From the IMG/VR virus record IMGVR_UViG_3300021519_000077, positions 1-23,270 of that record: 23,270 bases of DNA; one strand, written 5' to 3'. The DNA comes from a virus. A model generated the notes under the pieces. It was not told the DNA's origin. It was given only the letters and a program-made list of their open reading frames with translations, and ran no database searches. Shown piece by piece: positions 19,125 to 23,270 of this stretch. Position 1 is the first letter of the stretch. Every line of letters begins with the position of its first letter. The translations under genes and the position numbers were made by a program.

Positions 19125-19430
19125 TTAATACTTCAATTTAGAATAAACAATCTCACCAATCTTAGCTTTAAGACTAGGATCGTAATATTGTTTAGGCTTA
19201 TGCTCTTGCTTTTCGTTACCTACTTCTATACAACCATGATCTTTTAAATGTGTTCTATGTCGTGATCTTGAGGTTATCCAACTACCATCAATCATTGACT
19301 TATAAGGTTGTATATCACTCATTACCATGTTAGCTTGTCGCTTGACATCTTTCATAGCCCATGACTTTTCAGCCTCCTCTTGACCGATTGTAGGAGTCCA
19401 ATGTGCTAAAAATGCCTCTTTATCTGTCAT
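19125..19430 (-). CDS. Conserved head-module protein, 101 aa
   Basis: The central motif (DIQPYKSMIDGSWITSRSRH, then RTHLKDHGCIEVGNE) recurs next to scaffold and portal genes in many phages, as I recall, but has no assigned function. The protein is charged and has two H-rich positions in this motif that could bind metal, though no cysteine pairs support it. It begins in a TAATG overlap with the glycosyltransferase-like gene behind AAGGAGAATG, and ends 21 bp before the scaffold start. A role in head assembly is inferred from gene order only. Confidence 0.65.
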   Translation of the reverse strand: MTDKEAFLAHWTPTIGQEEAEKSWAMKDVKRQANMVMSDIQPYKSMIDGSWITSRSRHRTHLKDHGCIEVGNEKQEHKPKQYYDPSLKAKIGEIVYSKLKY

Positions 19431-20338
19431 TACATTCTCCTTATAAGTTCTGGTATCTGATCGTAGTCTTTCTCATCAACAGGTATTACAGAGTCGTACC
19501 AAGTTCCATGTTTCCATCGCCAACATTTAAACTCGTCTCTAGGCATAAGCACAATACACTTAACTCCTAATGCACCAGCTAGATGAGCAGTAGCAGTATC
19601 AACTGTGACTACTCCTTTCATGGCCTTAATGTGTCGTGCAGTCTTTGACCAATCTGTTTTCCAACCATCGTTAGGTAATGGATACCAAAACTCGTCACCT
19701 TCAGGATTTAAAGAGTAAGCATTTGTACCTACCAACTCAAGCATATTCTTAGGGTGCATAGTCCTTACATAATGCAAAATACCCTTAGAAGTAGCCCAAT
19801 TTACTCCTATCTTACTTGGAATATTCGATGGTATTGCCTCAAAATAACCCTCACTACCGACAATTTTCTGCAAATTACATGGAAATAATGATTTAACACC
19901 AGGGTGTTGTAACGAAAGGTAATAGGGTAAAGATATAGCACCAATCCAATAATCTGATTCAACTGCTGTTCCTTCTTCTGTTGCATTGGTAAACACATCT
20001 ATGCTACTGATCTGCCCTAAAAGGTGATGTAATGAGCCATGATTAAGACTAACGACTTTTCTAGCACCTAAGACTTTTAATGCTGGTAAGAATCTAGCAT
20101 ATTGAATAATATCGCCAAAGCCTTGTTCATGCACAACTGTTATTGACTTACCTATAAGACATTCGCCTCGCCAAACAGGTATTTTTAAAGGTTTTACATA
20201 ATCTGCAGCTTGATTCGCCATTACCTCTGGATGCCATCTGTATTCAAATAGTCTAAAACCAGCGTCTAATCTACCAGCGTGTAAATGCTCATAAGCCTTT
20301 TTATATTCGTTATGAGGATTTAATGGAGAAGTATTAAT
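19430..20338 (-). CDS. Glycosyltransferase family 9 / heptosyltransferase-like protein, apparent AUU start
   Basis: The 302-aa frame carries the marks of the heptosyltransferase fold: GESLIG-like lead-in, HEQGFGDIIQYARFLPAL (about 70-87), and VTVDTATAHLAGALGVKCIV with LMP (about 244-266), the nucleotide-sugar side of family 9. A TPR-like N-terminal helix pair (NEYKKAYEHLHAGRLDAGFR, LFEYRWHPEV) precedes it, as in family-9 proteins from phages and bacteria. This conserved part lies upstream of the first ATG (20221), and no ATG, GTG or TTG occurs back to the frame's stop at 20348-20350. ATT at 20338 lies four bases after AGGAGG, so an AUU start is proposed. It might modify virion or cell-surface glycans; substrate unknown. 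Confidence 0.7.
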   Translation of the reverse strand: MNTSPLNPHNEYKKAYEHLHAGRLDAGFRLFEYRWHPEVMANQAADYVKPLKIPVWRGECLIGKSITVVHEQGFGDIIQYARFLPALKVLGARKVVSLNHGSLHHLLGQISSIDVFTNATEEGTAVESDYWIGAISLPYYLSLQHPGVKSLFPCNLQKIVGSEGYFEAIPSNIPSKIGVNWATSKGILHYVRTMHPKNMLELVGTNAYSLNPEGDEFWYPLPNDGWKTDWSKTARHIKAMKGVVTVDTATAHLAGALGVKCIVLMPRDEFKCWRWKHGTWYDSVIPVDEKDYDQIPELIRRM

Positions 20339-20766
20339 ATAGCCTCCTCATCATCTTGGTCTGCTCTAGTCTTGGCATTTTGAATAGCCAATTCCATATT
20401 AAGTCTGTATATTTCTTGTCGAGCATTAATTGCATAAATAAGTTTCTGTCGTTCATTTTCAAGTGATTGAATGTCAAAATCGACTTTATCTATCTTTGGT
20501 TGTATAGATTTTACTTTAACTTCAATGACTTTGCGTACTTCTTTTGGGTCAATTAAGTTAGTTAATGCCTCTTTTCTTGCTCGTATCTTCTCAATTCTTA
20601 GTCTATTGCGTTCATTCTCTGCTTGTTGTCGTTTCTTGAGTAATGCTCGAATCCTTCTTAATTCTTCTTTAGTAATACCATCGTGCATATCCATTTCAGG
20701 TATAACGCTAATAGTCTGAAACGCATTATTCTGAAAAGCATTGACTTGGAACGCTGCTTGAAACAT
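20320..20766 (-). CDS. Coiled-coil protein with FQ/NAFQ repeats, 148 aa
   Basis: The N-terminus (MFQAAFQVNAFQNNAFQT) is a short repeat of F-Q/N-A-F-Q units, a pattern I recall at the start of small proteins near phage fibre genes. From residue 32 it is a long charged helix (EELRRIRALLKKRQQAENER, NRLRIEKIRARKEALTNL, QSLENERQKLIYAINARQE) with strong coiled-coil character. It starts at TAAATG after the fibre-like gene, whose GGTGGG codons serve as ribosome binding site, and overlaps the glycosyltransferase-like frame by 19 bases. It may trimerise or attach the neighbouring fibre-like protein. Function is not known. Confidence 0.65.
   Translation of the reverse strand: MFQAAFQVNAFQNNAFQTISVIPEMDMHDGITKEELRRIRALLKKRQQAENERNRLRIEKIRARKEALTNLIDPKEVRKVIEVKVKSIQPKIDKVDFDIQSLENERQKLIYAINARQEIYRLNMELAIQNAKTRADQDDEEAILILLH
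20339..20348 (-). promoter_or_regulatory. AGGAGG ribosome binding site for an AUU-initiated gene
   Basis: AGGAGG (20348-20343) then CTAT precedes ATT at 20338. The site also codes for E-E-A near the end of the upstream gene. It is the only strong Shine-Dalgarno sequence that could serve the full-length glycosyltransferase-like frame. Confidence 0.5.
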
Positions 20767-22161
20767 TTAAAAAGTCCCACCAAAAATTCCTGTTGTTGCT
20801 GTAATTGTCGTACCTTTAATTGTATTTGCTGAAGTACCACCAATAGCTGGAGGACTAGACAAGTCTAATGTGCCACCTAGTGTAAGACTTCCTGTAGTTG
20901 TAACTGTACCACTTAGTGATATACCTGAGACTGTACCTGTGCCACTTACGCTAGTTACAGTTCCATTTGTATTAGACTTATTGTTGAATGTTGTCCAATC
21001 AGTTGATGTTAGATAACCATTAACGCTTGCTGTAGCTGCAGGCATACTAATCGCTGGTGTTGCACCACCACTTGAGACTACAGGACTTGTACCTGTAACG
21101 CTTGTAACAGTTCCTACGCTGATCGAGCCACCTAAACTTGTGCTAGTACCATTTATAGTAATTGCTGAGTTAGTTAAACTTGCGTTAGCTATGTTAGTAA
21201 GGGTATTTGTAGAACCTGATATGGACTTGTTTGTTAGCGTATCTGTTGTTGCTTTACCAACTAAAGTGTCTGTAGCATCAGGTAATGTAATAGTGCGATC
21301 TACAGTTTGCACAGAAGAAATCATAGTTCTTGTGTTAGTAGTTGACCCATTAGGATTAAACATTAATCTTTTAGTATCGTCTAAACCACCTTGTACATTG
21401 ACATATCCACTTGTACCTTTTGGAGCTAAATGTATGCCTATGTTTGTATCTGTTCCTGTAGCTGAAATATGCACAGGATTGCCAGTTGCAGAGTTTTCTA
21501 TGGTGACTTGATTTACAGCACTTGCAATAGCTGAAAACTTTAATTCAGCATTTCCATTAGCATCATTAATTTGATTAATAATAGGTGTAGTTAATGTCTT
21601 GTTTGTTAGGGTTTGTGTTCCTGTTAGCGTTGCAACTGTACTGTCGATTGCTATAGTTCCACTAGTTGTTATCGTTCCACCAGTTAAACCAGTTCCTGCT
21701 GTAATACTCGTTACAGTACCACCACTTGATGGACTTGTATTTGTAACTGTAAAACTAGGGTAAGTACCTGTAACGCTTATACCTGTGCCACTTGCTATAG
21801 CGACAGTTTGATCAGGTGCAGTATTCGTAATTGTTAAAGTCCCACTTGTTGTTATTGGACTTCCACTTACACTTATGCCTGTTCCACCACTAGCTGCAAC
21901 ACTTGTCACAGTTCCTAAAGGATTTGTAGCCCAAGAAGTATCTGTGCCATCTGTTGTTAGATACTTACCTGTATTCCCTGTTTGACTAGGTGCAAGTGCA
22001 TTAAACGCAAGATTAGCAGTAGTTTGACCAGTTCCACCATTTACAATAGGAATAGTACCTGTTAATACATGGTCTGCGTTCCAATCACTAGGTCTTACTA
22101 GACTTGTATCTGCCTCATCAGGTATTGCTGATACTTTTAAATGCTTAACTGTAATAGCCAT
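20767..22161 (-). CDS. Fibre-like beta-repeat protein between portal and scaffold, 464 aa
   Basis: ATG at 22161 has AGGAG about nine bases upstream and overlaps the portal stop (TGATG); an in-frame GTG at 22164 is the alternative. After a short N-terminal module (ITVKHLKVSAIPDEADTSLV, RPSDWNADHVLTG) come phage fibre hallmarks: GGTGQTTANLAFNALAPSQT, GKYLTTDGTDTSWA, and four GTVTS(V/I) units near 83, 148, 350 and 400. TLTNKTLTTP and TLPDATDTLVGK segments also occur. It ends GTTITATTGIFGGTF, matching the 79-aa protein at 6348. Such repeats make trimeric beta fibres. Its location in the head module, far from the S74 fibre, suggests a head fibre or appendage; this is inference. Confidence 0.75.
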   Translation of the reverse strand: MAITVKHLKVSAIPDEADTSLVRPSDWNADHVLTGTIPIVNGGTGQTTANLAFNALAPSQTGNTGKYLTTDGTDTSWATNPLGTVTSVAASGGTGISVSGSPITTSGTLTITNTAPDQTVAIASGTGISVTGTYPSFTVTNTSPSSGGTVTSITAGTGLTGGTITTSGTIAIDSTVATLTGTQTLTNKTLTTPIINQINDANGNAELKFSAIASAVNQVTIENSATGNPVHISATGTDTNIGIHLAPKGTSGYVNVQGGLDDTKRLMFNPNGSTTNTRTMISSVQTVDRTITLPDATDTLVGKATTDTLTNKSISGSTNTLTNIANASLTNSAITINGTSTSLGGSISVGTVTSVTGTSPVVSSGGATPAISMPAATASVNGYLTSTDWTTFNNKSNTNGTVTSVSGTGTVSGISLSGTVTTTGSLTLGGTLDLSSPPAIGGTSANTIKGTTITATTGIFGGTF

Positions 22162-23270
22162 CACTGGACTCCTACGATTTTGCCTTGCTCATCCCTAATA
22201 ACTTGTTTTGGTCTGTTTGATGCCTCTTGCTGTTGTTGTAAAGTGCCTATTAACTGTCCTATTGTATTAGTCATACTCTGATTACCTTGACTAATTGCGT
22301 TCGCTATAGGTGCTAAAGGATGTTCTTGTGCTTTTATCATATCTTCATCATTCTGATACTCTGCATAAGCCATTGCACCATCGTCTAAGCCACTAGATAT
22401 TCGTGCAGTTTCAATCTTCGCACCATTATTGATGTATGCAAGAAGAATCTGTGTGTTCCTCTCTGTCATCATCTTCATTTGGGCTAACTTCATCTCCATC
22501 TCACGATCCATAGTCTGTCGTTGAGCCTCTAACTGGTTGCGTAGAGTGTTTTCTTGGGCTTGCATCTCTTGTTTATGTTGCTCAACTTGCATCTGTTGTT
22601 GCATCTTAGCTTGCTCTAACTGTGCGTTCATCTGCATTTCAGCTTGTTTAGCCTGGGACTGTGCTTGAATCTTCATCATCTCAGGATTAGGCTGTGGCTG
22701 TCGTGGTTGTTTAGCCATTTCTTTAAGTTTATCTGCTGTTTCGTCAATTAAACCCTCTAAACCCTTACCAACTTTGAACCCTGTTACCCCAAACTTGAGC
22801 ATTTCCATCGCCATAGGTACTAATTCAGGTGCATTTTGTCCTAAAGGTATGATGTTTTGCATAAAATTACCTACTGCACTCAAAAACTCCATGCGATCTT
22901 GCTTTTCTTGCATCTCATCTTGGTAAATCATCGAATCTGAGGTGACTTCTATCCTAAAATTCTTCGCACTTTCGTCTTTGAGTAATGCTAACGCTTGAGG
23001 TACAAGTTGCTTATCGTTGTCTGATAGTTGCGATGCACCACTTATCCGTACTATAGTTTCTTCTGTAAAGTGTCTGCAAATGATCTGTGCTTTGATATTC
23101 AAAATCTTAGTCGCAAAGTTCACGACATTGTGTTGCATAGTCTTTAATCGACCAGCAGCGTTATTACTCTTAATTATCTGAGCACCTAGTGTTTCATTAG
23201 GGTCTGTTTGACCCCTTTGAATGTCAGCAATTCCCATAATCTCGTAAATTTGGGACTTTACTTGTTCCAT
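22161..23270 (-). CDS. Portal protein, P22-like, C-terminal part (N-terminus beyond right edge)
   Basis: The 369 visible residues begin with an internal methionine at the window edge, and the frame is open, so the gene continues outside. SQIYEIMGIADIQRGQTDPN, ETLGAQIIKSNNAAGRLKTM and the following helices (NFATKILNIKAQIICRHFTE) match the core and wing of P22-type portals, the dodecameric DNA gate at the capsid vertex. Residues about 195-275 form a long Q/M/E-rich coiled coil (QMNAQLEQAKMQQQMQVEQH), comparable to the barrel region of P22 portal. The C-terminal tail is Q-rich and polar. It is the first late gene in the window; terminase should lie further upstream. Confidence 0.85.
   Translation of the reverse strand: MEQVKSQIYEIMGIADIQRGQTDPNETLGAQIIKSNNAAGRLKTMQHNVVNFATKILNIKAQIICRHFTEETIVRISGASQLSDNDKQLVPQALALLKDESAKNFRIEVTSDSMIYQDEMQEKQDRMEFLSAVGNFMQNIIPLGQNAPELVPMAMEMLKFGVTGFKVGKGLEGLIDETADKLKEMAKQPRQPQPNPEMMKIQAQSQAKQAEMQMNAQLEQAKMQQQMQVEQHKQEMQAQENTLRNQLEAQRQTMDREMEMKLAQMKMMTERNTQILLAYINNGAKIETARISSGLDDGAMAYAEYQNDEDMIKAQEHPLAPIANAISQGNQSMTNTIGQLIGTLQQQQEASNRPKQVIRDEQGKIVGVQ

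Follow-up and report, generated by a model that had tools for sequence, protein, structure and literature searches.

AUU is among the rarest start codons in bacteria. The E. coli gene infC, which encodes the initiation factor IF3, starts with AUU (PMC5472188). In S. aureus, cvfC1 also starts with AUU, and ccpN and the S. aureus infC start with AUA; ribosome profiling and reporters have shown that, compared with AUG, the cvfC1 and ccpN starts leave about 10% of the expression, up to 30% in the case of ccpN (PMC13009471). A comparison of ATG, ATA, and ATT in Listeria rsbW has found ATT to be the weakest of the three (PMC13068326). Bacteria are thus able to initiate at AUU when a Shine-Dalgarno sequence is present. 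Besides, ribosomes that terminate on one gene may start again at an initiation codon close by, a process that is enhanced by a GAGG Shine-Dalgarno sequence and inhibited by excess IF3 (PMC2268962).

AUU starts of phage genes were sought in the literature, and no case was found within its partial coverage. The present study concerns a glycosyltransferase-like gene (HT) of an uncultured phage, whose start would be an AUU initiation of the infC type. A preliminary description of this locus had named E. coli infC as the known AUU case, to which S. aureus cvfC1 has to be added.

A phage gene without a standard start codon

The window, i.e., the whole stretch of 23,270 nucleotides analyzed here, is a 23-kb phage fragment whose capsid protein shares 51% identity with its counterpart in Myxococcus phage Mx8. 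HT and the coiled-coil gene upstream of it (CC; Table 1) are adjoined by genes that match portal and head families. A glycine/threonine-rich virion-like protein (20767-22164) is located between portal and CC, and the CC N-terminus carries FQxNAFQ repeats that are common to many relatives. Downstream, the TAATG at 19428-19432, where the HT stop meets the next start, indicates that the operon goes on with tight coupling. No phage tRNA was found in the window, and an Rfam search gave no match.

Table 1. Features of the HT/CC locus in the window
Feature	Position	Strand	Details
HT, putative GT9-like glycosyltransferase gene, proposed CDS	19430..20338	minus	ATT to TAA, 302 aa
Proposed AUU start codon	20336..20338	minus	invariant across the clade
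Shine-Dalgarno sequence	20343..20348	minus	AGGAGG, spacing of 4 nt to ATT
CC, upstream coiled-coil gene	20320..20766	minus	148 aa, C-terminus DDEEAILILLH-stop
Overlap of CC with HT	20320-20338	minus	last 19 nt of CC, HT in -1 frame
Upstream stop closing the HT frame	20348..20350	minus	TGA
First in-frame standard start of HT	20219..20221	minus	ATG, place not kept in relatives
HT stop	19430-19432	minus	TAA
Next gene after HT	19125..19430	minus	101 aa, ATG shares one base with the HT stop (TAATG)

The HT frame is open from stop to stop between 20347 and 19433 on the minus strand. As the preliminary description had stated, no ATG, GTG, or TTG lies between the upstream stop and the conserved N-terminus, and the residues NEYKKAYEHL and GFRLFEYRW are encoded 5′ of the first such codon, the ATG at 20221-20219. 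Its observations that AGGAGG stands four bases 5′ of the ATT, and that the frame of HT is -1 with respect to CC, which ends at 20320, were likewise reproduced. The window also contains a mini-ORF, ATGATGAGGAGGCTATATTAA, with a stop codon overlapping the ATT; this candidate was dropped because it is missing from many relatives.

AlphaFold2, run on a 63-row alignment, modelled HT with a mean pLDDT of 88.5 as an N-terminal helix pair followed by a GT-B domain that spans residues 58-302. The solved structures nearest to this model are GT9 enzymes (3tov, Z 15.4; WaaF, 15.1; WaaC, 14.7; TibC, 14.5), with a best Foldseek E of 6e-7. The Pfam GT9 family (PF01075) was matched by 55 of the 63 HT relatives at E<=0.01 (best 1.1e-5); the window HT itself scored 20.8 bits, below the curated cut-off of 22. 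The earlier label "heptosyltransferase-like" is upheld in the sense of a GT9 fold match, the Pfam score being just below the cut-off, and we regard HT as a putative GT9-like glycosyltransferase. Neither a sequence search of the PDB with the HT profile nor a PHROGs search with HT gave a match. A search for HT relatives among genome contigs found none. The contig L449, filed in a Saccharibacteria MAG, has a capsid gene 71% identical to that of the window and no HT-like protein among its open frames; it is probably a misbinned phage contig and not trustworthy for host assignment.

Conservation of the ATT and the ATG-started sister lineages

Searching IMG/VR with the HT protein yielded 31 loci, and an HT profile search yielded at least 420 relatives; the 80 best-scoring ones were retained. 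The sample was widened by further queries from other branches, and deduplication of the junctions by their 80-nt context left 164 distinct ones in the ATT clade. The same aligned ATT was present at every one of these 164 junctions (TATTA in 162 and TATTT in 2). Each of them also has a Shine-Dalgarno match, 3 to 6 nt long and at a spacing of 4-9, in the form of AGGA, GAGG, GAGGT, AGGAGG, or shorter anti-Shine-Dalgarno matches. None has a standard start before the conserved body, within which a few members, e.g., L128, contain an in-frame TTG. The CC stop of the relatives begins 10, 13, or 16 nt past the A of the ATT.

By parsimony on a protein tree with 114 ATT tips, the four bases T (-1), A (+1), T (+2), and T (+3) have never changed, and +4 has changed twice; the other CC third positions scanned on the same tree, upstream and further down the overlap, had undergone 11-47 changes. 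Position +1 is the third base of an Ile/Leu/Val codon of CC, and position +2 is the first base of a Leu codon (TTA or CTN). Since both could vary synonymously in CC, their invariance is not explained by the CC protein. Not every invariant base counts as a separate piece of evidence, because CC coding alone fixes the T at -1 and at +3 and part of the rest. The sequences of the clade are not independent of one another either, and the measures least affected by this are the parsimony counts on the tree and the one reversion nested in the clade, described below.

L253 (602-704), a counter-example, is an HT relative without CC upstream and without the ATT, in which no standard start is met until a TTG at 34 codons into the frame; this may be a junction created by recombination or by assembly, or else a further unusual start. 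In L015 (5935-6020), a 17-codon insert that repeats "ATT AAT ACT" stands right behind the ATT, and there is still no standard start.

In a sister clade and in more distant relatives, both genes are present and HT begins with ATG (M-T-[PA]-Y...). This ATG mostly forms a 4-nt overlap with the CC stop (TTATGA) and otherwise lies 16-42 nt beyond it. Among 54 distinct ATG-started junctions, 31 show the ATGA overlap and only 8 an ATT at the homologous place, which is thus free to vary in these lineages; in the window, no ATG lies on the CC stop. The energy of the anti-Shine-Dalgarno duplex averaged -2.3 kcal/mol over 47 ATG starts versus -6.4 kcal/mol over the 164 ATT junctions, and is -12.3 kcal/mol in the window. 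L424 (1200-1235), as well as L425, L428, L429, and L432, is ATG-started and in addition has an in-frame ATT 5′ of the ATG, an arrangement that is possibly a picture of the intermediate state.

In a 58-row tree, all ATT sequences fall in one clade (support 100/99), outside which stand the ATG lineages L444, the pair L438/L439, and the L298 group. L264, which starts with ATG, is nested within the ATT clade (support 96/92). The tree needs two changes, a gain of ATT and a later switch back to ATG; read on this topology, ATT is a start codon that arose once and reverted once. HT of L264 begins ATG AGT TCT AAC TTA AAT CCA CAT, aligned to ATT AGC ACT AAT ... CAC of its relatives. The preliminary description had suggested looking among homologues for ATG in place of ATT, and the outcome was as predicted, with the ATG of L264 exactly at the ATT place. 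L264 has kept the CC tail as protein (DDEESILALFL-stop, with the codons AGC ATT CTG) and has lost both the CC-HT overlap and the ATT. A 13-codon ORF in L264 (1357-1410), with a GTG start, AAGGAG ahead of it, and an end that overlaps the HT ATG, suggests a new coupling leader.

Alternative explanations and the coiled-coil tail

By comparison of these sequences, AUU is almost certainly the start of HT. This start had been proposed in the preliminary description, and it is upheld here by the invariant ATT with its Shine-Dalgarno sequence, by the lack of a slippery site or RNA structure, by the ATG-started sisters, and by the replacement in L264. Initiation at AUU is by far the best-supported reading when set against its rivals. 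A programmed -1 frameshift near the CC end, producing a CC-HT fusion in which HT has no start of its own, would agree with HT lying in the -1 frame of CC without a standard start and with the 25-28 nt over which both frames overlap free of stops. However, an X_XXY_YYZ heptamer in the CC frame of the overlap was present in 0 of 351 loci; the preliminary description, too, had seen no classical slippery site. RNAalifold predicted no consensus pairs in pseudoknot-free folding of 30 junctions, and five single junction sequences folded no better than shuffled ones (z-scores near 0). Furthermore, HT is a separate ATG-started protein in the sister lineages and L264, and a fusion linker would need no invariant ATT preceded by a Shine-Dalgarno sequence, all of which makes frameshifting very unlikely. 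We give an equally small chance to reinitiation at the NTA codon (GTA, TTA, CTA, or ATA) that overlaps the CC stop at the site of the ancestral ATG. The ATG of the sisters is indeed aligned with this codon, but any of the four bases can occupy its first position, NTA codons with the exception of AUA initiate less well than AUU, and the invariant ATT with its Shine-Dalgarno sequence would be left unexplained.

A start of HT at the downstream ATG (20221), with the stretch upstream of it untranslated, is more improbable still. In its favor, no standard start precedes this ATG, and a codon of this kind is probably what automatic annotation picks, as in the UniProt entry A0A6J7WM20; this nearest viral model is 71% identical to HT and annotated with 250 aa, about 50 residues shorter, as would be expected if gene callers miss AUU. 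Among relatives, however, the position of the earliest standard start ranges from codon 15 to codon 73 or beyond and is thus not conserved. The HT stretch between the CC stop and most standard starts is, moreover, under strong constraint at the protein level: its dN/dS is about 0.11, its variability is 0.48 at third positions versus 0.19 and 0.11, and in 114 of 114 sequences one of the two remaining frames is interrupted by stops. In the AlphaFold2 model, the helices 8-20 and 24-35 precede Met40, and a start at ATG 20221 would lose both of them. As for a sequencing error or a decayed gene, the missing start speaks for it and nothing else. Hundreds of contigs from many metagenomes show the same arrangement, their frames intact and under purifying selection, so that the homologues refute this reading and leave it next to no probability.

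Returning to AUU initiation, we infer that the Shine-Dalgarno sequence directs initiation at this codon, which would be read by initiator fMet-tRNA. The AUU lies within the CC 3′ end, and the CC stop follows it by 10-16 nt; ribosomes completing CC would therefore be nearby and may feed the HT start. The consequence would be a probably modest (low to moderate), CC-linked expression of HT. Ancestrally, the two genes probably overlapped by the 4 nt ATGA, and a strong Shine-Dalgarno sequence was lacking. In the ATT clade, the ancestral ATG would have been lost, with CC ending at TAA or TAG, and the upstream AUU with its Shine-Dalgarno sequence would have taken over.

The CC tail offers a reason for AUU instead of AUG. 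From the genetic code and the observed tails, an NTG start in this register makes a CC codon TGN, i.e., Cys, Trp, or stop; ATT makes it TTN, which is Leu when A is next. At this site, the CC tail is "(Ile/Leu/Val)-Leu" read as NTA TTA, with the ATT covering the second half, and TTA accounts for 39% of the other Leu codons of CC. The hydrophobic tail persists in lineages with a detached HT (L298, L332) and in one without HT (L344), which indicates that it matters to CC itself. It is likely that AUU has been retained since NTG would put Cys, Trp, or stop into the conserved hydrophobic tail of CC. In our judgment, the explanation as a whole, namely a Shine-Dalgarno-directed AUU inside the CC 3′ end that is retained through overlap constraint, is very probably correct. 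In L344 (3474-3600), CC has the usual Leu tail, and in place of HT the next operon gene comes directly.

The AUU could also serve as a control, in that HT would be translated according to host IF3, or to how many initiation factors there are per free ribosome, and according to the translation of CC. We consider such a role unlikely; if true, a phage gene would be tied to the state of the host translation apparatus. Irrespective of this, an AUU start appears to be fixed across a large, deeply branching clade of uncultured phages. A single clade makes visible its origin, probably an ATGA overlap, its reversion to ATG, and a simple reason for it in the form of two overlapping coding frames. In other words, a coding overlap may hold a weak start codon in place. 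The natural ATT/ATG pairs are available for work on initiation and reinitiation, and gene callers probably truncate AUU-started genes of this kind.

Comparison with known systems

At the protein level, HT shares the GT-B fold with the GT9 enzymes WaaC, WaaF, Veillonella 3tov, and TibC (Z of about 15). It differs from them in its sequence (10-15% identity), in its score below the Pfam cut-off, and in the short N-terminal helical pair ahead of the fold.

With respect to the start codon, HT resembles infC in having a conserved AUU and no standard start in its place. However, the infC product is IF3, with AUU serving autoregulation, whereas HT has a product with a GT9-like GT-B fold and an AUU inside the upstream gene, for which coding constraint would be the explanation. 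The preliminary description had mentioned the autoregulation of infC; nothing here suggests it for HT, since the product is glycosyltransferase-like, and constraint from the overlap accounts for the AUU more directly. The cvfC1 and ccpN genes of S. aureus share with HT conserved non-canonical starts and strong Shine-Dalgarno pairing (PMC13009471). They are bacterial genes with experimental proof, in contrast to HT, a phage gene whose start is deduced by comparison.

The Listeria rsbW mutants, in which ATG was changed to ATT or ATA, are similar in that the start lies in a 17-bp overlap with rsbV, the gene upstream, and that ATT lowers translation of rsbW (PMC13068326). These are recent laboratory mutants, whereas the AUU of HT is fixed clade-wide. 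The coupling by ATGA overlap in the sister lineages involves the same two genes in the same -1 frame relation, with the start near the upstream stop. Where the sisters have a standard ATG and little Shine-Dalgarno sequence, HT would use an AUU together with a Shine-Dalgarno sequence, placed 10-16 nt before the CC stop.
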